From IMG/VR virus record IMGVR_UViG_3300020125_000098, positions 1 to 45,411 of that record: DNA of 45,411 nt, one strand, 5' to 3'. The stretch's first letter is position 1, and each line of letters opens with the position of its first letter. Positions 9,943 to 35,563 of the stretch are shown here, one piece after another. Made by a program: the position numbers and the translations under genes. Under the pieces are notes generated by a model. That model had not been told where the DNA came from. It saw nothing but the letters and a program-made list of their open reading frames with translations, and did not search any database. This stretch comes from a virus.

Positions 9943-11862
9943 CTATCCCCCTATGTAATAGCCTGGGTCCCCGTTTGACATATAGCCAAGCGAGGACGTT
10001 CCAGGGACCAGCGTTGAAAGAAAAGCGTAATTTTGTTGGGTTGCCGTTGCTCCCGTGTAATTCGGAAGCCCTGACGTACCTATAACTGCATACCTCTTGT
10101 TTGAAGCGTACCCAGTCGCAAAAAGCGTTAGGGTTACTTGGTCGTTCCTAAAGTCCGGCGCAGAAGCAAGACACTCGCAAAGAACTATCCCGCCACGTTT
10201 CCCCGTCAAGAGATTAGGGGTAACAGTACTCGCTAACTGTATTGTATCGCCGGGATTGACTAATTGAAGCTGGGCGAAACAACGAACTGTAATAATCGGT
10301 AACGGGTTAGAAAACCGCTTGAACAAGATGTTCGTTGCCCGGTTCGCTATTTGAAACCCTCTGTCCCTGGTGTTTATAAACTTTGCGTCTACGCTGTCCA
10401 CACTTGACTCTTCGTATGTGTTCTGGCTCGAGCCGTTAATGGTAATCAACTGATTCACATAGAAGTCCGCTACCGGCTGATAGTCGTAGTTGAAATCTAT
10501 TTCGTTCAGGTAGTTGTTCCCCGTTTGAAGTGAGGCATTGAACTGAGGAATCCCAATGATGTTTGAATCGTCCAGGGTAATATAATCGTTCGTGGGCAGA
10601 GGGTAATAGATGACCTTTAGGTCTAGCTGTCCTGATTTATTAGTGAATAGATAAAGTTGAGCCTGTTGGTAAATCTCATCCTGGAAAAACTTTAGGGCCG
10701 TCTTTTGGTCGTGGAAATAATTGGAGAACGTCAGCCAAGACAAGAATCTGTTCTTTTGGTTCTGAAAGTTCGTGATGTTAACCAGAGAGTAAGGAACACC
10801 TATCCCTTGGTTGGCTGGTAGCACGTCATAGTTCGTTCCGGTCCCGCTATAGTTCGTCCCTACTCCGGTTGAGAGAATGATTTGAAGCATGATATCGACC
10901 GGGTTTCCGCTAAAGAGAACGTAGTTGTCAACGTTGGAACCGGACTGGTTGGTTTGTGCGCCCGACTGCCCATTGGAACTAAGAACCACTTGTTGAAGTC
11001 CGTAGAACGCTCCATTAGCACTTCCCAATCCTGTGGGCCCACCACTTGAAGCGGAAGTCCCGGCAATCACGCATTTGTAAATGTTCCCGAGGTTAAAGAC
11101 CTTGTTCCCGACTACATAAGCGTGACTCGCCAACCATTGAGGAGTTGTGGCTGTTACCGTTCCCTGTCCGATGTACTGCCAAGTGATTGAGTTGTCCAAG
11201 ACAATTCCAGAGCCCTTACCCGTGTACGAATAGAGACAGTTGTTTATCTTGAGGTAATTTCGAGGTCCGTTCCCGTCCCCGAGATCGGTTGAACCCGCAA
11301 AGTAAAAACTAGAGGTAACAAAACAGGTTGTGTCGCCTGGGTTAAAGTCCCTGGTTAACTGAGTGTGACCCTTAAGTATTTCGGTGTTTAACTGTTTTAG
11401 AGCATCCGTAACCGTAAAGGTGTAGGCCGTCCCATCTGCGGTAAGAACCCAGTTATTGATTTGCCCTGAATAGATGGATGAATAGTATTGTTCGTCAATG
11501 CCTTCATATCCCTTATAGATGGTCACAAGCCTGTTTTTCATCGTGTAGGAGGCCACTGCGTTCGTTATTTCGTTGTTTATGTCCAATAGGTCAAAGGTGA
11601 TAGAAGATAGCGAGGAAACGCCCGTCAGAGGGTTAATTGTGTTGGGTGCGGAGGTAGGAGCCGACATATACCGTTTACGAGAAACCGTAGCTCCTTGAAT
11701 GGGTCCGGTACAGTATTGGTCAGGAAAAACTTGAGAGTTGGTTCCGAGCGGTCCGGTGACAAGTCCAAAGACAACGTAATAGACAGGTCGCTTTTGGGCT
11801 TGGTCGTTGTATCGAACAAATGCGCTGGAAGCATCTCTAAAGTTTTCAGGAGTTAAGGCCAT
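9943..11862 (-). CDS. Large tail-tip / baseplate protein
   Basis: The 639-aa protein is encoded downstream of the tape measure and before the fibres, where siphophages encode tail-tip hub or baseplate proteins. An early conserved-looking segment (YYVVFGLVTGPLGTNSQVF) is followed by beta-rich sequence with KNRLVTIYKGYEGIDEQYYS and INNWVLTADGTAYTFTVTDA, then a carbohydrate-binding-like insert (WLASHAYVVGNKVFNLGNIY, about 245-265). The C-terminal part includes LQLVNPGDTIQLAS, common in hub proteins. I assign it from synteny and beta-rich composition, not from a diagnosed family. Confidence 0.75.
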   Translation of the reverse strand: MALTPENFRDASSAFVRYNDQAQKRPVYYVVFGLVTGPLGTNSQVFPDQYCTGPIQGATVSRKRYMSAPTSAPNTINPLTGVSSLSSITFDLLDINNEITNAVASYTMKNRLVTIYKGYEGIDEQYYSSIYSGQINNWVLTADGTAYTFTVTDALKQLNTEILKGHTQLTRDFNPGDTTCFVTSSFYFAGSTDLGDGNGPRNYLKINNCLYSYTGKGSGIVLDNSITWQYIGQGTVTATTPQWLASHAYVVGNKVFNLGNIYKCVIAGTSASSGGPTGLGSANGAFYGLQQVVLSSNGQSGAQTNQSGSNVDNYVLFSGNPVDIMLQIILSTGVGTNYSGTGTNYDVLPANQGIGVPYSLVNITNFQNQKNRFLSWLTFSNYFHDQKTALKFFQDEIYQQAQLYLFTNKSGQLDLKVIYYPLPTNDYITLDDSNIIGIPQFNASLQTGNNYLNEIDFNYDYQPVADFYVNQLITINGSSQNTYEESSVDSVDAKFINTRDRGFQIANRATNILFKRFSNPLPIITVRCFAQLQLVNPGDTIQLASTVTPNLLTGKRGGIVLCECLASAPDFRNDQVTLTLFATGYASNKRYAVIGTSGLPNYTGATATQQNYAFLSTLVPGTSSLGYMSNGDPGYYIGG

Positions 11863-11865
11863 TCA

Positions 11866-13419
11866 TCACCCGTTATCGTATTCGGAACAACCTTGCGTCC
11901 AGTTGTAACGAGGGATATTAGGGTCTGTCACTCGGAAGCCAGTCAGACCGTTTCCGTTGACTTCTAGGAACGGGTAATAGAGGAGTGAGTAAACGTAGTC
12001 ACCCGGATTAGTGGCGAAGTTTGTTGGTTGACTCAACGTAACCGATGACGTTGCAATAGCCGTGAATTGAACCACTTGTTTGTTAGTGTTGAGAGCGTTT
12101 TGGATAACGTAATAATCTTGGGTCGAAGTGGACTTTTGCGAGAACTGGCTAGTCGGATTCGTTCCAAGATTACCCATGATTTGAAGCGTTGAAGAGTTGG
12201 GTTGCCTTGAAGTACCAATAACTCCAAAACATCTGTCTGTAACATTGTCAACCATTAACCCGAACGGGTTTCCTTGAACGGCGTTCAGGAAGAAGTTATC
12301 GGCTGATTGTCGCCATTGATACCCACAAAGGTCCCTGACAGAAAAAGATAAGTCTCCCTTTAAACCATAGTTATTAGTTTCTCGGACACCAGCCGTCGAG
12401 ATATTAACAGACTGAAGCTCTTTTGGAGTCGGGTCATAGGTGGTTATCTTCCTTCCAAAATCTATTGTTTTATAAGAATATATGTCCCCAGGGTTCATCA
12501 TAATTAAATTAGAACGACACCCAAGGCTCGTTGCGGTAGCCGTAGAAATCTCTGTGTATATCCCAATCGGAAGATTTGCATTAAAATAACTAGTTCCAAC
12601 AAAATTTAATGCGGCAGGAGATGAAGAATCTGCCGTTGTTGAAAGCAAAAGAGAATTCTGGTTTGTGTAAAAGTTAACTGTTTGCATTGTGGTTGTTGGC
12701 ATTAATATCTGAATTTGAGCGGACCGATAATATTCGACCGAATCAAAATAACCAATAGATGTCCCAGTTCCTCCTGCCAAATTAGACTGAACGTAAATTT
12801 CAGAAACCGTAGAGGTGGTTGTAGAAACGTTTGAAATTAATGTTCCGTCTATGAGCATGTTATAAGATCCGAAATTTCCGAGTTGCATTTGAAATAAATG
12901 CCACCCAGTTGTTCTTGTTACAGAGGATACGTTTTGGGGATCGTCTTGGGCGGCGCTCGTAACCGCATTGAAACAATACTTGGTTGTACTAAAAGAATTC
13001 CTCACACCCACGCTCATATACTTTCCAGATGCGAGTTTGGCTTTTAAATATGGTCCTTGGGCAGTTGTGTTCGTTGCATCATCATAAAACCAACCCTGAA
13101 CTAACCAAAAATTATCGACGTTGGTATCTGTTATTACCTTTTTGGCTATAGGTATTCCGCCATTAGCATTGTTGTCCCAGGATTTAATGCCTTGCTTGAA
13201 CTGAACCCCAGAATTGGCGGGAGCCCCTTGAATAGTTGTCCATCCATCGGCGGAAATGAAATTATCGTTTTCAAAACCTTCTGAGAACACAACGCCATCA
13301 CGAATCTTTTGTAGGTAGGTAATAACCGAATGACCACCGGACGGACCATAGGGGTTTTGATTAGAAGCCATTTGACAACCTCCCAACAAACAAGCTAGTA
13401 ACGCTAGTACCTTTTTCAT
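11866..13419 (-). CDS. Tail-region protein with a lipoprotein signal peptide, 517 aa
   Basis: The N-terminus MKKVLALLACLLGGCQMAS is a textbook lipoprotein signal: a KK n-region, a leucine-rich h-region and the lipobox LGG-C with Cys15. A LamG/concanavalin-like beta domain follows (about 40-230; SEGFENDNFISADGW, GWHLFQMQLGNFGSYNMLID). The C-terminal half is of unknown fold. The ATG has a good GGGAGTGAACC leader. The gene lies between tape measure and tail tip, the usual place for a distal tail protein, yet carries an export and lipidation signal. It may be a surface lipoprotein made late in infection, or a virion component. The 5' half looks more AT-rich than its neighbours, suggesting domain acquisition. 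Confidence 0.78.
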   Translation of the reverse strand: MKKVLALLACLLGGCQMASNQNPYGPSGGHSVITYLQKIRDGVVFSEGFENDNFISADGWTTIQGAPANSGVQFKQGIKSWDNNANGGIPIAKKVITDTNVDNFWLVQGWFYDDATNTTAQGPYLKAKLASGKYMSVGVRNSFSTTKYCFNAVTSAAQDDPQNVSSVTRTTGWHLFQMQLGNFGSYNMLIDGTLISNVSTTTSTVSEIYVQSNLAGGTGTSIGYFDSVEYYRSAQIQILMPTTTMQTVNFYTNQNSLLLSTTADSSSPAALNFVGTSYFNANLPIGIYTEISTATATSLGCRSNLIMMNPGDIYSYKTIDFGRKITTYDPTPKELQSVNISTAGVRETNNYGLKGDLSFSVRDLCGYQWRQSADNFFLNAVQGNPFGLMVDNVTDRCFGVIGTSRQPNSSTLQIMGNLGTNPTSQFSQKSTSTQDYYVIQNALNTNKQVVQFTAIATSSVTLSQPTNFATNPGDYVYSLLYYPFLEVNGNGLTGFRVTDPNIPRYNWTQGCSEYDNG

Positions 13420-13431
13420 GGTTCACTCCCA

Positions 13432-14907
13432 TTAGTTTACTTTCGATGCGACTAAGGTTACGTTACCTTGTTGAACCACGTCCGACAACCTCTTAGCTAG
13501 ATTAGCGGCGAATTGGTCGTCCATAATACCGCCTTGTACATTTACGGTTAATTGTGTCGTCGTTCCTGCGTTAGAGGATGACGCTCCAGGATTTAAAGAG
13601 TTAACTCCAAGGTTTCCATTAGCCGTTGAGGTCGAACCAGTACTAGTCCCAGGTCCAATCGCCGCACTCGCCACGGCTCCCAAAGTCTCGATAGCTAGAC
13701 CTTCTGCCGTTGCAACCGCCGCCTGACCAAAGTTCCCTTGAGCAATCCAATAGGCCGCCCAAGCGTAAGCCCCTTTAGCCAGGTTCGTGGTTGTTTCGGT
13801 GATGAGGCCCTGAAACATCTTTGCCGTATCAACAACAATTACGCCATTGACCTTTGAAATGTTACCCGTTAAAAAGTGTGTATATTTTTCAATTTCAGAA
13901 GCTATCTTGTCGATGTTCGATTTTTCATTTGCGAGCATCTCAAGGTCAGACTGTCTACGAGCTTGGTTATAAGCAATATGATGTTCTAAAAGTTGACGCT
14001 CTTTTTCGTCCCTTGTATCCGCCAATTTTAGTGATAGGTCGGTGTTTTCTTGATCAATTTTTATAACGTCTTGGACCTTCGCCATATCAATGTCCCGATA
14101 CTGGGTCATTAACTTTTGTTGGTCCATTAGGGTTTTGCTAGCTTGGATTTGCCTAGTCAGTATCTGCCACTCGTCCTCTTTTGTCTTTTGAGCTTTGGCG
14201 TTCTCGGCCAAGACGGCGGTGTAAGCGGCTATCTCGTCGTTAAGAGTTTTCTGAGCCGCCGCAACCCTCTTTAACCTCTCGGACTCAACAACGTGGCCGA
14301 CACCTGTTTTTTCATCCAAAGACGCCCGGTCTTGTCCAAGTAAAATAGCCCTAAGGTTTTCACGAGCTAAATCAACCTGAGCTTTGGCTTGGTCCTTGGT
14401 GTGTTGGGTTAGTCCATCGAGTGCGTTGGCTTGGTCGAGAAGACTTTTAACAATGTCGGCACGTTCGCCGGACTTCTTGGCTTCCTCGGCGGCGTCCCTG
14501 AACGATTTAGCGGTCTTGTTGTTCTTATCAATTATCTTTTGTATTTCATCAGCGGTTAAATGAGCAGAAGCGGCCATCTTTTGAAAGACTTCAAACAATG
14601 CCGTACCAGCAATGACAGCAATACCTAGAGCTGGATTGAAAAACAAAAGAGCATTACCCGCCGCATGAAGACCATGCTCTAACATGGCCGTTCCGCTCTC
14701 GCCCTTCTGTCCCATATCCAGCATATCATTGGCAATACCAGAATAAGCAATGGCCGCAATCGGTCGTTCAATACGTTTGATTAAGCGCTCGTTCTTAGAG
14801 GCGAAATCGTCAACCGAATCACCCATACCCTTAATATCTTTTTGTGCCTGTTTCAGGCCGGTATCGGTGTAGGTTGTAGAAACGTTCAGGGCTATGTCGC
14901 TTGGCAA
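13432..14907 (-). CDS. Tape measure protein
   Basis: At 491 aa it is a short tape measure, consistent with a short siphovirus tail. The N-terminus has the typical ALNVSTTYTDTGLKQAQKDI pattern. A hydrophobic region (AGNALLFFNPALGIAVIAGT, about 85-105) could insert in membrane, and a long Lys/Glu/Ala helical section (130-340) includes HTKDQAKAQVDLARENLRA. A second hydrophobic, Ala/Gly-rich part (365-410) and a low-complexity Ser/Thr/Gly linker follow. The start is a TTG immediately after the stop of the frameshift extension. It lies directly after the chaperone genes, as expected. Confidence 0.88.
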   Translation of the reverse strand: MPSDIALNVSTTYTDTGLKQAQKDIKGMGDSVDDFASKNERLIKRIERPIAAIAYSGIANDMLDMGQKGESGTAMLEHGLHAAGNALLFFNPALGIAVIAGTALFEVFQKMAASAHLTADEIQKIIDKNNKTAKSFRDAAEEAKKSGERADIVKSLLDQANALDGLTQHTKDQAKAQVDLARENLRAILLGQDRASLDEKTGVGHVVESERLKRVAAAQKTLNDEIAAYTAVLAENAKAQKTKEDEWQILTRQIQASKTLMDQQKLMTQYRDIDMAKVQDVIKIDQENTDLSLKLADTRDEKERQLLEHHIAYNQARRQSDLEMLANEKSNIDKIASEIEKYTHFLTGNISKVNGVIVVDTAKMFQGLITETTTNLAKGAYAWAAYWIAQGNFGQAAVATAEGLAIETLGAVASAAIGPGTSTGSTSTANGNLGVNSLNPGASSSNAGTTTQLTVNVQGGIMDDQFAANLAKRLSDVVQQGNVTLVASKVN

Positions 14908-17628: not shown

Positions 17629-18032
17629 GACGCTTTTCTCCACACGCTTTGATATTCAACAACTCCACCACCACCCGGAACAGGATAGGGTGTCCCTGCC
17701 TGACTGTATTGAACCCCATCAAAAATCATGCTGTCCACTTGTTGCCCCGTCTTGCTTCCTGCTCCGAAAATCGGGATACGGGTTTTGATCTGTAAGTCCC
17801 CGACCTCATAAATCCCGCCTTGTGTCAGAACGTCTTTTCCGGTCATCACTCGAACCTGTCCCGCTACCTCGATAAAATAAAAGGTCTTGGTTGGGGCAAC
17901 ACCCAACGAAGGGTTCCCGGCACTTTGAGAAACGTAACGCTTTAGAACAAACCTTCTTCCCATCCCTCTATCGGTCTCGGTAGAGAGGTCGGAAAAAGAT
18001 TGAGCGTCATTACCAGTAAATTGGTCGTTCAT
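17625..18032 (-). CDS. Head-closure / stopper-like protein
   Basis: The 135-aa, beta-rich protein includes RFVLKRYVSQSAGNPS, TFYFIEVAGQVRVMTGKDVL and a Pro/Gly-rich tail (GTPYPVPGGGGVVEYQS). Size and position between adaptor and gp10-like genes match head-closure proteins that seal the portal. The ATG overlaps the upstream stop by four bases. The function is assigned from gene order; no family signature is certain. Confidence 0.7.
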   Translation of the reverse strand: MNDQFTGNDAQSFSDLSTETDRGMGRRFVLKRYVSQSAGNPSLGVAPTKTFYFIEVAGQVRVMTGKDVLTQGGIYEVGDLQIKTRIPIFGAGSKTGQQVDSMIFDGVQYSQAGTPYPVPGGGGVVEYQSVWRKAS

Positions 18033-21531: not shown

Positions 21532-22143
21532 TTACTTTTCATCGAGGAATCCGGCAAGCACCGGACCGCTCGAATTATGTTTACTGGTTCCACGATTCAA
21601 AGCAGGAGCGCCCGATTCCCGGAGGTTGAAGTATTCGACCTTCTCGCTCTCGGATTCGATAATCGCCTCGATTTGCTTAATGGACTTTCCTTCAGCCTGC
21701 GCCCTGACCGACTTTTGGAACGGCTCGGGCAACTCAGACTCTTTCAACATCTTCTCTAGCTTCAATTCGAAGTTTTCCTTGCGAAGAGCTTCCATCTTAG
21801 CCTCTTTCTTCGCTTCGCTTTCTTTCTCGTCCTCATCATCTTCCGACTCTTTTTCGTCTTCGTCCTCGGCCTCTTTACCCTTCTTGGCTTCTTTTTCTTT
21901 CTTGGCCTCGGCTTCTTTCTTCATGTCCTCGTCTTCATCTTCAGACTCGGTTTTCCCTTCGTCGCCATCCGGTTCGCCGTCACCGTCTTTGGGCGCATAT
22001 TGGGAAGCATGGTCCATCAGGATTTTCTTGGTAGCATCGTCCCCGGCTTGAGCGGCCAGCCCAGTCAAAGCGGCATGAGCGGCACCACGAGCCGCCTTGT
22101 TAGCCTCTTCGAGAATCTTTTGCTCAGACTTTTTCTTTTTCAT
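21532..22143 (-). CDS. Nested scaffold protein (internal in-frame start)
   Basis: Inside the protease-scaffold gene, codon 249 is an ATG at 22143 preceded by GAGGGAGAAACG, a strong Shine-Dalgarno at ideal spacing that the coding sequence does not require. Translation would yield a 203-aa protein beginning MKKKKSEQKILEEANKAA, followed by the acidic/Lys-rich scaffold and the C-terminal helix. The arrangement matches lambda C/Nu3, where the scaffold is produced from an internal start at higher level than the protease. Independent expression is inferred. Confidence 0.72.
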   Translation of the reverse strand: MKKKKSEQKILEEANKAARGAAHAALTGLAAQAGDDATKKILMDHASQYAPKDGDGEPDGDEGKTESEDEDEDMKKEAEAKKEKEAKKGKEAEDEDEKESEDDEDEKESEAKKEAKMEALRKENFELKLEKMLKESELPEPFQKSVRAQAEGKSIKQIEAIIESESEKVEYFNLRESGAPALNRGTSKHNSSGPVLAGFLDEK

Positions 22144-22887
22144 CGTTTCTCCCTCTTGGCTCGTGCCCAACACGGTCAGCAAATTGTCGGACATTCGGCG
22201 CAATTCTTTTTGAAGCGGAAATTCACCTGCGGCTTGAATCTTGTCTCTCAACTCTTTGACAATCCCACAAGCTTGCGTCATTTTGTCGGCGTCCGTTTCC
22301 CGCTTCTTCCTGAACGCTTCCAATTTCTTCTCGAACCTTCCACCCCTAGCGGCCTTGGTTACTGCGTCAACGCTTTCGGCTTCGGTAATCCGATCTACTT
22401 GGTTCCATTCCTCGCCGTTCAAATCGACCGGAGAGGATTCCCCGTTGGCGTTGATTGAAAGCCCCGCATAATCCTCGCCCACATTCTCAAGCGAGTAGTC
22501 CAAACAATCTTGGATGAACGCCTCTAAAAACTCGCCCGTTTCCGTCTTGCTAATTGTGAGCGTAGCTTTTAAAGCCACTCCATCCGCATGAACATTTGTG
22601 AACCAACCCGCCCTGTCCTGCACCCTGCGTTCTGGTTGGATTTGGTCGTCCAACGTTGAAGGGTGATTCAAGAAACAGGGTTTACCCTGGAACGCCTCTC
22701 GTGTAACCGGGTCGTTAATGCAAGCCTGGGAGTAATAGTGTCGGTCCCGAGGATTGCCTTTCCCTTCCGTGAGGATTACGACCTCATAGCGGGAACGCCC
22801 GTTTGCATCTTTGCCTAGGCTCTTTGCTTCTCTAAGTGCGCTGTGGGTACTGTTACACTCAATGAGTTTCTTGGTCTTAGTGAGCAT
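21532..22887 (-). CDS. Prohead protease with fused scaffold domain
   Basis: The 451-aa polypeptide has an N-terminal prohead protease-like domain (about 1-180) with a His in CFLNHPSTLD (His75) and a Ser in DYAGLSINANGE (Ser144), the spacing of HK97/herpes-type serine proteases. A charged helical region follows (about 180-245), then a scaffold-like section of long Lys/Glu/Asp runs (about 290-375) ending in a helical capsid-binding-like tail. An in-frame ATG at 22143 has its own ribosome binding site, so the scaffold can also be made alone. The ATG at 22887 lies 14 nt past a terminator U-tract, with only GGGGAC as Shine-Dalgarno. Confidence 0.88.
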   Translation of the reverse strand: MLTKTKKLIECNSTHSALREAKSLGKDANGRSRYEVVILTEGKGNPRDRHYYSQACINDPVTREAFQGKPCFLNHPSTLDDQIQPERRVQDRAGWFTNVHADGVALKATLTISKTETGEFLEAFIQDCLDYSLENVGEDYAGLSINANGESSPVDLNGEEWNQVDRITEAESVDAVTKAARGGRFEKKLEAFRKKRETDADKMTQACGIVKELRDKIQAAGEFPLQKELRRMSDNLLTVLGTSQEGETMKKKKSEQKILEEANKAARGAAHAALTGLAAQAGDDATKKILMDHASQYAPKDGDGEPDGDEGKTESEDEDEDMKKEAEAKKEKEAKKGKEAEDEDEKESEDDEDEKESEAKKEAKMEALRKENFELKLEKMLKESELPEPFQKSVRAQAEGKSIKQIEAIIESESEKVEYFNLRESGAPALNRGTSKHNSSGPVLAGFLDEK

Positions 22888-29183: not shown

Positions 29184-30191
29184 TTATCCAATGAGTTCCC
29201 TGATTAATTCTAACCTCTTTTGGTTAACTTTGGGTAACAAATAGTTCTCTTGGATACAGTCCCAACTTTTCTGTACGTCTAGGTTGTTCTGTAATCCGTG
29301 GTTTTGAATAGCCAAGTTTAGGTCCGTTCCCACTCCCGGTTGTGTCCATTCGTACCAAGGCATTCCTATGGTTTTTGCGCCGACCCATGATGCCTCTAAC
29401 CATGCAAGATTGGACCTTGAACGTGCGAATGGGTTGTCTTTAAGCGGTACTATCCAAATCGCTGGGTTTATTTGGCAAAGCGTGTGCATATATTCATAAA
29501 GTGTTGGGGTGTGAGGGACATACTTCATGTTAGGCAAAACCCCGTTGTAATCATCCATTTCTTCGTACCACCAAGGGTAAATCCCCAGGAAATAGAGCGT
29601 CCAGTCTGGATTTGCTAACATTGTTTCATAAAGCTCTTTTCGGACCATCAAAAGGTCTGATAGGTGGGCTGGTGCGCTTCCACGCCAAAGAATTGTTTTA
29701 CCTTTAGGTTTTAAATCCGGTTTCGTGAACGTCTCTAGGTCTAGGGCGTTTGGTACATTTACAATCTTGGCTTTTGTAAACTGTCTCAGTTGATCGCCTA
29801 GGTAATTCGTTGTGACCGTTACCACGTCCGCCATTTCCAAGCAAGCTCTAATTGTGTTCTGCGTTGGCTCAATCATGTAACTGTAAAATGCGTTATGGCT
29901 AGGCGGAACGTTGGTTTGTAAATCGTCCTCATCCACCCAAATCTTGGCTCCCATGCGTTTAAATGTTGCGGTTGCGCTTATCAAATCAGGGTGAAACGGT
30001 CTTTGAAGGAAAACTAAGTCAAAGAACCCCGCTTGGTCCCAGGTTCCCGGTAAAGGTAATCCGCTCTTGCTCGAAATGTATTTGATTTCGTAATCGTTCC
30101 CTAGTTTTTTGGCGATTAACTGCCAAGGTCTAGCGCAACGATAAAAGCTTGTTGGGTCGTTGTCGGGAGCATAAACGAGTATTCTTTTCAC
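29184..30191 (-). CDS. Glycosyltransferase, GT-B fold (GT4-like)
   Basis: The 335-aa protein begins MKRILVYAPDNDPTSFYRCA. It continues with a GT-B-like core: LVFLQRPFHPDLISATATFK, KIWVDEDDLQTNVPPSH, DVVTVTTNYLGDQLRQF, IVNVPNALDLETF (a GT4-like acceptor-to-donor linker) and WRGSAPAHLSDL. The late segment (NPFARSRSNLAWLEASWVGA) fits the nucleotide-sugar E-x7-E region. The GTG start overlaps the preceding stop. It is the last gene of the glycan cassette. Donor and acceptor are unknown. Confidence 0.82.
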   Translation of the reverse strand: MKRILVYAPDNDPTSFYRCARPWQLIAKKLGNDYEIKYISSKSGLPLPGTWDQAGFFDLVFLQRPFHPDLISATATFKRMGAKIWVDEDDLQTNVPPSHNAFYSYMIEPTQNTIRACLEMADVVTVTTNYLGDQLRQFTKAKIVNVPNALDLETFTKPDLKPKGKTILWRGSAPAHLSDLLMVRKELYETMLANPDWTLYFLGIYPWWYEEMDDYNGVLPNMKYVPHTPTLYEYMHTLCQINPAIWIVPLKDNPFARSRSNLAWLEASWVGAKTIGMPWYEWTQPGVGTDLNLAIQNHGLQNNLDVQKSWDCIQENYLLPKVNQKRLELIRELIG

Positions 30192-31849
30192 GCTTTTTCC
30201 TTTTGGCCTTGTAGTAATTTCATTCCAATACTAAAAATCTCTCGTGGGTCGAACCCACTTGAACACATGAATTGCCTTGGGTCTCCTGGTTTGTAATCGC
30301 AGTAATAACCAGTTACTAATCCGTGTCTCTCAATACACCTTTTACATTCGGCTTTCGTTTCAATGGCCGTGACTCGATTGGAAACTAAGTTTGCGGGATT
30401 GCAAACCGTGAACAGTCCAATCGCAGGACAAACACCGTCCGCAACGTGCAAGGGTCCCGAATCCACTCCCACGAACAGTTTAGCCCCATAAAGTAGTTCT
30501 CTAAGCGTGTGAAGGGTCGTCTTCCCCACGAGGTTATGAACGCCTTTTCCTTGTCCACCAAAGTCGTTACCGGACCCAACACACATAACTTGATATCCAA
30601 GGTTCACAAAGTTTCCAATGAGGTTTTCCCAAATTGCGGCGTCAATCATCTTTCCAGGAAACCCAACTCCCATGTGGAACACAACGTAATCTTGGCTCCA
30701 ATCGAAGTCTGGTAGCTGTCTCCTCAATTGAAATTGATCGAAATAGTTTGTCTTGAGCTTTACGGGTTTCATTCCAGCATCTTCTAATCCCGCTTGTTTG
30801 GCGTACATTTCGCTAACGGTTTTGGTTCGGTCCCACTCGCTTGCGAGGTCCATGTTAACAATGCTTGAGAAGGCAAATTCCTCCTCGCAATCGGTTATGG
30901 CGATACATTGTCTATCCCTGAAAACCTCAGGTACTCCCGTCACCACAATGTAAGGACCATTTTTGGCTACCAATTGGTCATATACTTCAAGCGTTCGCAT
31001 CACGTCACCAATCGCCCCATGACGAATAAAGGCTTTAGGTAAATCGGGGTGAAGTTCTTCGTTGGCTTTGTTCATCTTTTCTTCAATGGCTTTACAGTCC
31101 AAATCCGAGTAACGGTTTTTAAATATCTCTAGGGTTTTCTTTTCTCGCTCATAAACAATTGGTGCGTTGCGACGTTTCTCTTCGTCCGTGCGTCCCCTTG
31201 TTGAACCCTCGTTGTGGATGCTCGTAATCATCGGGTCATAGTAAACCTTCATTCCGTTCTGCCACGCTTTGAAACACATATCGGTATCTTCGCAGGACAT
31301 GGTTAGCGTTTCGTCAAATGGGTTTTGTTGCCAAAAACTCTTTCTAACCGCCGAAGTTGCGCCCGTAACGTACATTCGGAAGCTCGGGATAGTGCAGAGC
31401 TTCACTTGGTGCGGGTAGCGGTGCTGTCCATAGTGCCCCATTGCGCTTGAGTTCCAGAACCGACGCCCTCCACCGTGTTGAATCTTTCCGTCTGAATAGA
31501 ATAACAACCCACCAACCACGGCTATTTTTTCATCCTTCTCAAAGTCGGCTTGGAACTGCTCGGTTAGCCTAGTGGTGAACTCAACGCCATTTGTTGCGAT
31601 ACAAACGTAATCAGTTTCAGCGGCGGCACATCCTAGGTTCATAAGCTTCGACAAAGAATCGTTGAATGGGTTGACAATGAATTTGGCGTTGAACATCTCG
31701 GCCACCTGACGGGTCAATTCAACGTTCGGACCTCCGTTGTCAGTTAGAATTAGCGGGTCGTCTGGATGAAACTTTCGGAAAGTTGACAAGCATTTCATCG
31801 TTAATTCTTGCTTTCCAAACGATAGGACGACATATGTGACTTGGTTCAT
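30188..31849 (-). CDS. Bifunctional glycosyltransferase: GT2 fused to GT9 (heptosyltransferase-like)
   Basis: About 553 aa. The N-terminal 260 residues are a GT2 family GT-A domain: TYVVLSFGKQELTMKCLSTF, ILTDNGG, TDYVCIATNGVEFTT in place of the DxD region, and ETLTMSCEDTDMCFKAWQNG, the ED motif of rhamnosyl-like GT2 enzymes. From about 270 a GT9 domain begins with AFIRHGAIGDVMRTLEVYDQ and contains FVGVDSGPLHVADGV, the heptosyltransferase signature for nucleotide-sugar binding. A Cys-rich tail (KAECKRCIERHG, YYCDYKPGD) follows. The fusion suggests two successive sugar additions. The start at 31849 overlaps the previous stop as ATGA. Confidence 0.88.
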   Translation of the reverse strand: MNQVTYVVLSFGKQELTMKCLSTFRKFHPDDPLILTDNGGPNVELTRQVAEMFNAKFIVNPFNDSLSKLMNLGCAAAETDYVCIATNGVEFTTRLTEQFQADFEKDEKIAVVGGLLFYSDGKIQHGGGRRFWNSSAMGHYGQHRYPHQVKLCTIPSFRMYVTGATSAVRKSFWQQNPFDETLTMSCEDTDMCFKAWQNGMKVYYDPMITSIHNEGSTRGRTDEEKRRNAPIVYEREKKTLEIFKNRYSDLDCKAIEEKMNKANEELHPDLPKAFIRHGAIGDVMRTLEVYDQLVAKNGPYIVVTGVPEVFRDRQCIAITDCEEEFAFSSIVNMDLASEWDRTKTVSEMYAKQAGLEDAGMKPVKLKTNYFDQFQLRRQLPDFDWSQDYVVFHMGVGFPGKMIDAAIWENLIGNFVNLGYQVMCVGSGNDFGGQGKGVHNLVGKTTLHTLRELLYGAKLFVGVDSGPLHVADGVCPAIGLFTVCNPANLVSNRVTAIETKAECKRCIERHGLVTGYYCDYKPGDPRQFMCSSGFDPREIFSIGMKLLQGQKEKA

Positions 31850-32118
31850 TTTCTTATCCATTCGGGCGATTTTTCGTCATAGAATTTATTATCAGCGAAA
31901 TATTCTCTAATTTGTTCGGGTTTAAAATCCGCATACATTTTGCAATCTAGCCCTTGCATCGCTTTCATTGAATTATAGTCGTGCCCATAAACAAAACCTC
32001 TTCCGCAACCTATACAATTTCTCCCTAAAATCATTGATGACCTAGCCCAGATATCCTTAATCTTCCACGATCCCCACTGATGAATCCCCAATGAACAAAG
32101 AATTCTATGAAAGTTCAC
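31846..32118 (-). CDS. Small Cys/Trp-rich protein in the glycan cassette, 90 aa
   Basis: The GTG at 32118 has GGGAGG upstream and overlaps the previous stop (GTGA). A longer ATG start at 32136 is less likely. The protein has an HxW-type head (CSLGIHQWGSWKIKD) followed by CIGCGRGFVYGHDY, a layout seen in small phage or bacterial zinc-binding proteins of unknown function. It lies between two glycosyltransferase genes and is co-transcribed with them. Confidence 0.7.
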   Translation of the reverse strand: MNFHRILCSLGIHQWGSWKIKDIWARSSMILGRNCIGCGRGFVYGHDYNSMKAMQGLDCKMYADFKPEQIREYFADNKFYDEKSPEWIRK

Positions 32119-32819
32119 TTCACCCTCCCTAACCATTTATCAATTACCGACATTCTCTGCTCTAACGTCATCCCTGCTAGATGGACAATATAATCTCCGG
32201 GTGTCCAATTCCCAGGGTCGTCCTCTGGTTCCAACCTCGCTCCGCAATCGTAAGAGTTCATGGCCTTTTGTGCCACCGGAAAGATAAATGGTCTTGGGTT
32301 GTCCCAAAAGTACCTTTGGTCGTGTTCGCAATCCCCTGCGTCAACTCGCCTGAGCATTTCCAAAAAGTATTGAAACGAATTGTTACAGTTTTTGATTAAC
32401 ATTTGGCTTGAGTTGATCCCGGCCTTGTCGGTCCCAACCATTATATCTTTCGGATACCACTTGGTAAGCTCTTCGATGGTTTGGCTCGTGTCCGTGAAAA
32501 TCGCATCACACCCAATGGTAAAAATGTAATCAAACCTTGGGTCCAACTTTAATAACATCTTCATTGCAAAATTTGCGTTTCGTTGGCCCGCAACGCATAG
32601 GGCTTGGTATCCCCTCGGTTGGTCTTTGAACTCTTGTCCTCTTACGCCCTCCATCATTCGTATATCCATATCCATTGCGTCTTCCGTGTTGTAGTTCTCC
32701 ATTTTGTGTTCAAAGTATTGATATCCGTGTTTCTTGCAATAGGCTCGATGGTTAGCCGTCGTCTTTTCTGCCAGCCCCTTGTAATTAGGATAATAAAAAG
32801 TCGTCACTACTATTTTCAT
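32115..32819 (-). CDS. Glycosyltransferase, galactosyl/mannosyl GT34-like
   Basis: The 234-aa protein opens with KIVVTTFYYPNYKGLAEKTT and has YCKKHGYQYFEHKMENYN, the pattern of GMA12/MNN10-type (GT34) transferases. DYIFTIGCDAIFTDTSQT provides a DxD-like metal/nucleotide-sugar site (CDAIFTD). Downstream are QMLIKNCNNSFQYFLEML and a C-terminal His in YIVHLAGMTLEQR. The product transfers a hexose to an unknown acceptor. It is coupled by overlap to genes on both sides. Confidence 0.78.
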   Translation of the reverse strand: MKIVVTTFYYPNYKGLAEKTTANHRAYCKKHGYQYFEHKMENYNTEDAMDMDIRMMEGVRGQEFKDQPRGYQALCVAGQRNANFAMKMLLKLDPRFDYIFTIGCDAIFTDTSQTIEELTKWYPKDIMVGTDKAGINSSQMLIKNCNNSFQYFLEMLRRVDAGDCEHDQRYFWDNPRPFIFPVAQKAMNSYDCGARLEPEDDPGNWTPGDYIVHLAGMTLEQRMSVIDKWLGRVK

Positions 32820-34099
32820 AATGTCTTTAACTCTGGTATAGGAACAATGAACTTACCACCAGCTTTTCGGTAAGGCTCCTCCTTCGCCAAAATCTCATCC
32901 ACAAAGTTCCAAGCCGTCAATAGGGCGCAATTTGGCAATGTGGACATTAAACTCTCTGGTGAGTAAATCGGGATATGAGTACCGGGCGTGTAATGGTTCT
33001 GTTTGTCGGGCGTTGCATCAACCATGTAATCCAGAACCGAATTGTCTATCCCGAAATAGTTCAGAAGAGTTGTGGATTTTGCCGTGGCTCCATAACCAAC
33101 AATCTTTTCATTTCTCCATAGTCTTTCGTCCAACACTTCCCAAAGACTTTTCTTTAGTTCGATGATTCTAGATTCAAGATTTCTATAAGTTCCTATTCTT
33201 TTAACTCCCCATTCTCTTTCATTCGTCAACCTGTTTTCTATGTTCAATGGGTTGTTGTATGATTTTGGTCCGTCCTCACGTTGGAAATAAACCCTAAGTG
33301 ATCCTCCGTGAATTGGTATTCGCTCAACATCAACCAACGCAAGTCCGTGCAACTCAAAAAGTTCCTTAATCGAGTGAAGTGAGTAGTAACAAAGGTGTTC
33401 GTGGTAGATACAGTCAAATTCTAGTTGGTCAACCAAGTCTCGAACGTAGTGAGTTTCAACCACGGCCACTCCATCGGGCGCTAATAGGATTTTGATTCCC
33501 TCAATAACGCTGTGTAGGTCCGCAACATGGGCCAGAACATTGTTGGCGTGAATAACATCTGCGTGAAAGTTCCATCCAACACGCTTAGAATCAATTTCCT
33601 TTGACCCGTTTCCAACCAACTGCCTAGCGGTCTTTTCGTTGAAGAATCCGTTAATGGTTCTGACACCCGCTTTATTAGCTTTGTCCGCTATGTTCTCGGC
33701 GGGTTCAATCCCAATAACTTTTATTCCGTGCTTGACGTAGTTTTTTAGAAGGTATCCATCGTTAGACCCAACTTCAACCACGCAAGAGAAATCCTTCTCG
33801 CCGTATGGCTTGAGATTTCTTTGTTTAATTAAGTATTCGACCAAATCCTCGGCGTTCTTGAGTGTGGTTTGGGATATGGAGGAATTGTAAAAGTAATTCG
33901 AGAATAGTTTTTCGGGCGGGACCGTCTCAACGATTTGTACAAGTGTACAATCTTCGCAGAATACTAGGTCAAGTGGGTACTTCTCTTCGGGTTGGTCTAG
34001 TTGTTCTTTGGTTAAAAGAGCGTTCGCAAGTGGAGTAAATCCAAGCGAAAGAATATTCTTAATTCTATTACCGCCACAAACCCGGCAAGACAAAATCAT
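32816..34099 (-). CDS. Sugar C-methyltransferase (TylCIII/NovU-like)
   Basis: The 427-aa protein has all three parts of the family. An N-terminal zinc-binding domain has CRVCGG and FCEDCTLVQI (residues about 5-60). A class I SAM domain has VVEVGSNDGYLLKNYVKHGI (motif I) and GVAVVETHYVRDLVDQLEFD. A C-terminal domain begins YGATAKSTTLLNYFGID, typical of C-methyltransferases acting on nucleotide-linked ketosugars. Such enzymes make branched deoxysugars. No phage gene for the sugar nucleotide itself is present, so the substrate would come from the host. Confidence 0.9.
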   Translation of the reverse strand: MILSCRVCGGNRIKNILSLGFTPLANALLTKEQLDQPEEKYPLDLVFCEDCTLVQIVETVPPEKLFSNYFYNSSISQTTLKNAEDLVEYLIKQRNLKPYGEKDFSCVVEVGSNDGYLLKNYVKHGIKVIGIEPAENIADKANKAGVRTINGFFNEKTARQLVGNGSKEIDSKRVGWNFHADVIHANNVLAHVADLHSVIEGIKILLAPDGVAVVETHYVRDLVDQLEFDCIYHEHLCYYSLHSIKELFELHGLALVDVERIPIHGGSLRVYFQREDGPKSYNNPLNIENRLTNEREWGVKRIGTYRNLESRIIELKKSLWEVLDERLWRNEKIVGYGATAKSTTLLNYFGIDNSVLDYMVDATPDKQNHYTPGTHIPIYSPESLMSTLPNCALLTAWNFVDEILAKEEPYRKAGGKFIVPIPELKTL

Positions 34100-34118
34100 T
34101 CACTCACCCCAATTTAAC

Positions 34119-34913
34119 TTAATCGTTGTACGTTCTATCCTTAATCCATTGTTTTAGGTACTTGGGCGGTGCTTCCGTTGCAGGTAAAAGGTCAGACTTG
34201 GAGAAGCGAGTATACGGGCGAAACGCTCCTCCGTTTTCTCGAATATCTGCATCCGTTCTCGGGTCGTGGAGCCCAAGGTCGAAGACTCGCTCTTGGATGT
34301 GGAGGATGTGATCGGTTTTCTTTTTCCGGTCTCGGATGAACCCAGCATGGAATAGTCTAATGGCATCTTTGTACTCCCATGTGAACGGTGCTTCTAAACT
34401 CTCGGCGTCACCGTAAGAATTATATTGTCGAAGTGCCAAACGAACAACGTATTCCGAACAAGGAAGTTCCCCACCCCGACCCGTTGCGAACATCTTGGGG
34501 TAGTTAATGTAATGGTAGGCGTCTCCCCAGGTGCTTCTGCGTTGAACAGCGTAGGCTTGAGCAATAGGATTTTCAATCGCCGCCCTTACTGCCCAATGGC
34601 AGTCCTCATGCAAAACCTCGTCGGCTTGTATGTTGAAATGAAATTCGGTAGTCAACATATCCCTTGCGATGTTGGTGAAATATGGAAGTCGTTCTTTTCC
34701 AGGCCTTCCGTCGAAGTCCGCTTCGGTCATCTTCTTCAAAATTATTTTTGGCTCGTTAGCGAACTTTTCTTTGAAAGTTTCGAGGTCGTCGTCACTGAAC
34801 AAAAGAATGGCCACTTGTTGGGATACTGGCAACACCGACTCAATAGCTTCTGTCCAACAGTAGTCCAGACGATTTCCACGGCATACCATTAAACTCGACC
34901 CTAGTGTGGTCAT
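34119..34913 (-). CDS. GT-A-like glycosyltransferase
   Basis: The 264-aa protein shows a GT-A-like pattern: AILLFSDDDLETFKEKF, then FTNIARDMLTTEFHFNIQAD, where QADEVLHED resembles the acidic metal/nucleotide-sugar region of bacterial GT2-like transferases. HAGFIRDRKKKTDHILHIQE forms a basic acceptor-side helix. The ATG at 34913 overlaps the preceding TGA (TGATG). It lies in the glycan cassette after the SAM methyltransferase. Family assignment is moderate. Confidence 0.7.
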   Translation of the reverse strand: MTTLGSSLMVCRGNRLDYCWTEAIESVLPVSQQVAILLFSDDDLETFKEKFANEPKIILKKMTEADFDGRPGKERLPYFTNIARDMLTTEFHFNIQADEVLHEDCHWAVRAAIENPIAQAYAVQRRSTWGDAYHYINYPKMFATGRGGELPCSEYVVRLALRQYNSYGDAESLEAPFTWEYKDAIRLFHAGFIRDRKKKTDHILHIQERVFDLGLHDPRTDADIRENGGAFRPYTRFSKSDLLPATEAPPKYLKQWIKDRTYND

Positions 34914-35563
34914 CACTCTCCTCCTTTTGGTTCAATGACAAAGCATCCCAGACCTTCGTGATAACCCTGCTCTTTTGCTAAGTACCATTCGCCTTTTACG
35001 TTGAAACTTTCAAGCGCTTTGTCGGTGCCAATCTTTACGCTAGGCGTGAGTTGCCAGTCATCCACAATCAAGATAAACGGGCTCGTGTTAGCCTTTCCAA
35101 AGTGTGTAATCCCGAGGTTGGTGGAAAATTCATCATGTGAACCGTCATAGAAGTAAACTTGGCTTTGGGGTCTTTCGTGTTCTTCCATTCCGAAACAATC
35201 TCGGTTAATGATTCGGTACTCTCCAAGGTGACCGCCGTATTTCAAGAGGTTCTTATTAAGCTCTTCTCTTGCGTCAAATCCTCCGCACTCTTGAACCCCG
35301 AACTGGCTAAAGTTATCAATGGCAATTCCCTTAATATTGTTGTCGTAAAGAGCGGGGATAAATGTAGACCCAGCCCACGTTCCGATTTCTAGGTAGGTGT
35401 GTGGACCAAATGAATTAATGTGATTGAGGAACCTACGGATTTTCGGAGAAGAGAACCCACGAAGCATTACAACGTCTTCGGGCATCTTTCCATTGTCGCC
35501 ATTTGAAGCGTCGATACTCTGCTCGACCATTTTGATTAGGTCGGAAGTGTTTGAGTAATCCAC
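34913..35563 (-). CDS. Class I SAM-dependent methyltransferase (Methyltransf_24-like)
   Basis: The 216-aa protein contains TYLEIGTWAGSTFIPALYDN (SAM motif I), KGIAIDNFSQFGVQEC (motif II acidic), QVYFYDGSHDEFSTNLG (motif III-IV with D-G-S-H) and FILIVDDWQLTPSVK (motif with DD), the pattern of small-molecule or sugar O-methyltransferases. The GTG start overlaps the preceding stop. It begins the glycan cassette. A role in methylating a transferred sugar is inferred from its neighbours. Confidence 0.82.
   Translation of the reverse strand: MDYSNTSDLIKMVEQSIDASNGDNGKMPEDVVMLRGFSSPKIRRFLNHINSFGPHTYLEIGTWAGSTFIPALYDNNIKGIAIDNFSQFGVQECGGFDAREELNKNLLKYGGHLGEYRIINRDCFGMEEHERPQSQVYFYDGSHDEFSTNLGITHFGKANTSPFILIVDDWQLTPSVKIGTDKALESFNVKGEWYLAKEQGYHEGLGCFVIEPKGGE

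Follow-up and report, generated by a model that had tools for sequence, protein, structure and literature searches.

The gene at 11866..13419, on the minus strand of the window (the whole 45,411-base IMG/VR record analysed here, from an uncultivated tailed phage), encodes a 517-amino acid protein from an ATG at 13419, and joins a lipoprotein-type signal sequence to what appears to be a tail protein. Virion proteins of tailed phages are expected to remain cytoplasmic until the cell lyses, and tail proteins assemble in the cytoplasm. The best explanation, held tentatively as quite possible rather than probable, is that a protein of the distal-tail position acquired an inserted signal sequence, and that one reading frame would now yield a lipidated form starting at Met1 and a virion form starting at Met17.

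Genomic position and relatives

The gene, whose minus-strand orientation was not given in the first-pass annotation, sits directly between candidates for the tape measure and hub/Tal genes, which is the gene order of a Dit. The upstream neighbour (13432..14907, minus strand) encodes a probable tape measure protein of 491 amino acids, and the downstream neighbour (9943..11862, minus strand) a hub- or tail-tip-like protein of 639 amino acids. Both were assigned from position, length and their counterparts in the relative L100: the tape measure candidate matches no family convincingly and corresponds in position to L100:15128-16747, and the hub-like protein, for which family searches gave nothing above cut-off, is 33-40% identical to L100:18219-19553. 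With these probable tape measure and hub-like genes on either side, the slot between tape measure and tail tip that the first-pass annotation had proposed is borne out, as is the AT-rich 5' half that it described, with a GC content of 0.411 (0.434 in the 3' half) against 0.467-0.519 in the neighbouring genes. Equally AT-rich sequence makes up 1.8% of the 777-nt stretches of the window. Residues 242-270 of the hub-like protein show a weak match to the carbohydrate-binding family CBM_5_12 (E 0.0023, below cut-off). Elsewhere in the window, a run of glycosyltransferase- and methyltransferase-like genes (29184-35563) lies upstream of the terminase genes; counterparts of three genes of this run (29184, 30188 and 32115) adjoin the terminase in L005, a contig of the L005/L085 lineage whose terminase shows 76% identity.

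Direct searches with the 517-amino acid protein found no match in IMG/VR, phages or PDB sequences, and nothing significant in Pfam. NCBIfam gave one weak match, to the Leptospira lipoprotein LIC11073 (E 0.0075), which is read as LamG-type similarity, and PHROGs gave phrog_888, a family of unknown function (E 0.009). Single-protein searches with the hub, capsid and terminase returned no close relatives, and neither did alignment of the protein against genome_contigs. Relatives were reached stepwise, through an alignment of terminases, then of prohead proteases and then of capsid proteins; the capsid alignment recovered one locus from genome_contigs (L179), from a metagenome-assembled bacterium.

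Among these relatives, L100 (the same as L177) is collinear with the window through the tail, with counterparts of the genes at 18029, 17625, 17059, 16443 and 15613, of the studied gene and of the hub-like gene. The L100 homologue is 34% identical over residues 29-514 (36% in the alignment), and a more distant full-length homologue in L109 (the same as L178) is 23% identical in the alignment. Both begin straight at the LamG-like module (MKSLLNYCQKIRDGVLFAETFENDN and MGNTILQMMVPGIEGQMLFESFEGTN, respectively), and a signal is found in neither, a point lacking in the first-pass annotation. Insertion of a moron among the tail genes was considered and ruled out, given that the relatives have a homologue in the same slot. 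Downstream of the tail genes in this closest syntenic relative, a 217-amino acid ORF (L177:13402) has a lipoprotein-like N-terminus (MKPATAAGLLLMLLSTAGC) and no PHROG match.

The C-terminal part of the protein (residues 260-517; 11869..12642, minus strand) contains a core, at approximately residues 320-420, that recurs behind the tape measure in 16 other contigs. This core of about 100 residues, present in one ORF of each contig, was traced with an HMM of residues 262-517, run iteratively on the retrieved loci. Its first round depends on two modest matches (E 0.0004 and 0.005), and the profile is supported because all later matches share one slot. In 16 of 16 contigs, the core ORF follows an ORF of 642-702 amino acids, taken as the tape measure, and lies ahead of the following tail gene. 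Most of the core ORFs start with MALxxKSLFLYGF or a similar sequence, and none carries a signal. Gene order and homology together suggest that 11866-13419 encodes a tail protein of virion type, occupying the distal-tail position. Membership of the Dit family is established by neither sequence nor fold, hence the term 'distal-tail position' protein rather than proven Dit; the Dit families DUF2460 (PF09343) and Sipho_tail (PF05709) had no match in the window at E<=10, with both models detected in the control genomes.

The LamG-like module and structure models

Residues ~40-262 (12634..13302, minus strand) form a predicted LamG/ConA-like jellyroll module. In Pfam, LamG is not significant in the window protein itself, and the L109 homologue gives a weak match to Laminin_G_3 (E 0.048). 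In a fold search, the BFVD matches were mostly phage ConA/LamG jellyroll proteins, and the PDB matches included CBM40 and Cip1. A single-sequence AlphaFold model was useless (pLDDT 28.5), and the model built with 19 sequences was partly confident for the N-terminal module alone, reaching a pLDDT of 80 near residues 171-200. The core region remained below 50, and no Dit was among the 50 fold matches listed. The models lend moderate support to a jellyroll fold of the N-terminal module, which probably binds saccharide. The top PDB fold matches were binding domains of clostridial neurotoxins, and a toxin reading was rejected, as these matches (TM ~0.2, rmsd ~20 A) reflect only the common ConA-like jellyroll. 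The LamG-like domain of the first-pass annotation finds support in the fold search, with Pfam below cut-off, and its suggestion of a domain-swapped tail protein agrees with this N-terminal module, with the L100 synteny and with the core in 16 further contigs.

A predicted lipoprotein signal with two candidate start codons

Codons 1-15 (13375..13419, minus strand) encode a predicted type II signal sequence, MKKVLALLACLLGG followed by Cys, and the N-terminus of the protein reads MKKVLALLACLLGG-C15QMASNQNPYGPSGGHSVITYLQKIRDGV. The lipobox has Leu at -3, Gly at -2 and Gly at -1 ahead of Cys15; Gly at -2 is tolerated but not classical. Signals were called with a home-made rule; in the related phages, the calls were then read by eye. 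A bacterial-type lipoprotein (Lgt/LspA substrate) has an n-region with Lys/Arg, an apolar h-region and a lipobox ending in Cys within approximately the first 30 residues. In the studied gene, MKKVLALLACLLGGC has the Lys/Arg n-region, an apolar h-region of mean hydropathy 3.26, and the lipobox Cys. The LGG-C15 lipobox that had been noted at first pass is confirmed, and the gene is the sole ORF in the window with a signal and lipobox by this simple rule (ORFs of at least 35 amino acids, both strands). The rule was passed by 12 of 1,000,000 random N-termini drawn with the codon usage of the window, or about once per 80,000, and by 19 of 75,241 start codons followed by 40 open codons in the window and loci. 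A signal such as this is not expected by chance.

The putative ribosome-binding site of Met1 is GGGAG (13426..13430, minus strand; -6.8 kcal/mol), and the start position is the same as in L100. The surrounding sequence is also common to the two (ACCATGAAAA in the window and ACCGTGAAAA in L100, sharing ACC[A/G]TGAAAA), with 12 nt from the upstream stop to the start in the window and 11 nt in L100. Because position and context match L100 and the extra codons come after, Met1 is probably the old start, with the signal and a linker inserted behind it; alignment with L100 places this lineage-specific insertion of ~28 codons at 13328..13411 (minus strand). An exported, lipidated product is plausible because the signal is non-random and Met1 lies at the old start position. 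This reading is complicated, however, because a second start with a better ribosome-binding site, Met17, bypasses the lipobox.

Met17 (13369..13371, minus strand) is an internal in-frame ATG, absent from the first-pass annotation, that lies two codons past the lipobox Cys and has GGGAGG seven bases upstream (13379..13384, minus strand; -10.9 kcal/mol). This Shine-Dalgarno sequence falls within the codons of the lipobox Leu-Gly-Gly-Cys and is built from them (TTG GGA GGT TGT); it ranks first among those of the 237 internal in-frame ATGs, and exceeds nearly all annotated starts. Initiation at Met17 would give a predicted form of 501 amino acids that has neither signal nor lipobox and resembles the signal-less homologues. 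A Gly-Gly pair encoded GGA GGN resembles a Shine-Dalgarno sequence by itself, which counts against a reading of two products; 24 of the 74 Gly-Gly pairs in the window are encoded in this manner, and only that of the lipobox is followed by a suitably spaced ATG, three to four codons downstream. A strong internal Shine-Dalgarno sequence is also seen in the protease-scaffold-like gene of the window (21532-22887, minus strand), where the ATG at 22143 (MKKKKSEQKILEE) ranks third of the 237 and is placed where a nested scaffold would begin.

Signal-like starts in genes of related phages

The tail-tip gene of L173 (L173:17625-20312), which follows that of the core protein, has its N-terminal motif from residue 29, preceded by MRNFMRQIIASLLLFVLPINAFA. 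Among its 15 counterparts, 13 have the motif starting at residue 5 or 6, whereas those of L175 and L131 did not fit the motif pattern; all 15 lack a hydrophobic start. The ATG at L173:17625 overlaps the stop codon of the preceding gene (ATGA), and the signal is not followed by a second start. The L173 gene appears to have gained a signal, in parallel to the window gene.

Signal-like N-termini are also found in two families of the related phages. All members of a fibre-like family with the motif WGPKxNxxxDxID (L133:19174, L111:15242, L115:16337-17407 and L148:18818-20260) have a signal-like N-terminus that ends in an AxA-type site, and all members of a family of ~450 amino acids behind the capsid gene (L128:11228, L133:11192, L111:7560-8939, L115:8749-10131 and L116:11190-11627) have a hydrophobic, signal-like N-terminus, joined in L128 to an F5/8C-like C-terminus. 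In both families the signal-like N-termini vary in sequence and the mature part is conserved, and PHROG and Pfam matches, ranging from weak to good, link members with tail fibre proteins and with proteins that carry an F5/8C domain. Further signal-like starts occur at L121:10864, which has a tail-spike match, and at L175:18980, which matches K1-lyase_C.

Two proposed products from one reading frame, and the alternatives

As the sequence shows, the ~28-codon insertion of this lineage brought in a type II signal sequence and, within its lipobox codons, the strong ribosome-binding site of Met17. If two products are made, initiation at Met1 would yield a precursor for export and lipidation at Cys15, whereas initiation at Met17 would yield the 501-amino acid form, which would stay in the cytoplasm and become part of the tail tip. 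On the envelope of the infected cell, the lipidated copy would expose the receptor-binding module of the phage itself; conjecturally, it binds the receptor saccharide of the phage, and perhaps hinders re-adsorption. The tail homology, the match of Met1 with L100, the strength of the Met17 Shine-Dalgarno sequence, precedents for internal starts and the parallel in L173 argue for two products. Against them, the signal occurs in one genome and was called by a home-made rule, no relative is close enough to show conservation of either start, the fold of the core is unconfirmed in the models, and the L173 tail-tip gene, with a signal and no second start, shows that two starts are not a general rule.

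Were Met17 the sole real start, the signal-like stretch would be an untranslated spacer bearing the Shine-Dalgarno sequence, and the product an ordinary cytoplasmic tail protein, as would suit the very strong Met17 site, the homologues without a signal and the established assembly of tail proteins in the cytoplasm. However, a spacer is unlikely to encode MKK, a nine-residue apolar run and a lipobox (~1e-5), it would leave a gap of 60 nt, against fewer than 20 nt between most neighbouring genes, and Met1 coincides with the start position of L100; we regard this account as rather unlikely. Alternatively, Met1 may be used and the hydrophobic N-terminus remain uncleaved in the virion, as a membrane-active segment of the tail tip during DNA entry. 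The tail-tip position is in keeping with such a role, and the L173 tail-tip gene, with a signal-like start, no alternative start and presumably a virion protein as its product, offers an example. Yet the complete lipobox and signal-typical length go beyond a mere hydrophobic segment, and the AxA-type cleavage sites kept by the fibre-like family suggest processing, making an uncleaved N-terminus decidedly doubtful.

The main idea of the first-pass annotation, a dedicated exported lipoprotein made from Met1 only that blocks receptors or superinfection in the manner of T5 Llp or Rtp45, seems very unlikely. The lipobox is present, and the Llp gene adjoins that of the receptor-binding protein pb5 (PMC9586334), but the window gene occupies a conserved tail-protein slot with a conserved core, its full export would remove a tail component, and the strong Met17 start speaks against it. 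Llp and Rtp45 are also small; the Llp type is a small, dedicated lipoprotein that is no virion component, and the product here has 517 amino acids and is homologous to tail-slot proteins. More broadly, this phage group may repeatedly place Sec or lipoprotein signals on tail-tip and fibre proteins for display on the envelope, with the window gene keeping its virion form through the second start embedded in the lipobox. We consider this wider proposal somewhat unlikely.

Comparison with known systems

A distal-tail-position protein that bears an extra module is of a known kind, and it is the N-terminus that is unusual. Evolved Dits are siphophage Dits with inserted carbohydrate-binding modules, described in phages of Gram-positive hosts (PMC7291167). 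The window gene shares with them the slot behind the tape measure and an extra lectin-like module, but its product has no DUF2460 or Sipho_tail match, and the module is N-terminal and LamG-like rather than inserted in a galectin domain. We know of no evolved Dit with a lipoprotein signal. In searches of the open-licence literature, neither a tail protein with a lipoprotein signal nor a two-start tail protein was found.

The exclusion lipoproteins T5 Llp, Rtp45 and Cor resemble the window gene in being phage-encoded with a lipoprotein signal, and in lying near tail or receptor-binding genes. Those that have been solved are small, dedicated proteins that act from the periplasm, mature Llp having ~60 residues and Rtp45 a mass of ~6 kDa (PMC9586334, PMC12685063). 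The window product, in contrast, is a 517-amino acid homologue of tail proteins, with no similarity shown to these lipoproteins, and exclusion by a lectin-carrying tail protein would therefore be by different means. If the two-product explanation is true, it suggests that tail proteins can also serve for display on the envelope or for receptor blocking by the phage itself, and the L173 parallel, together with the signal-like starts in two families, suggests that the window case is not isolated.

In-frame internal starts are familiar from lambda, in holin S and C/Nu3. They have also been described for phage endolysins with two products (PMC9430671). As in these genes, one reading frame with two starts would give the window products a common C-terminus, whereas the long form would differ from the short by a signal for export and lipidation. 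The lipobox codons, doubling as a ribosome-binding site, would in that case be a compact route to a virion component together with its membrane-anchored counterpart.
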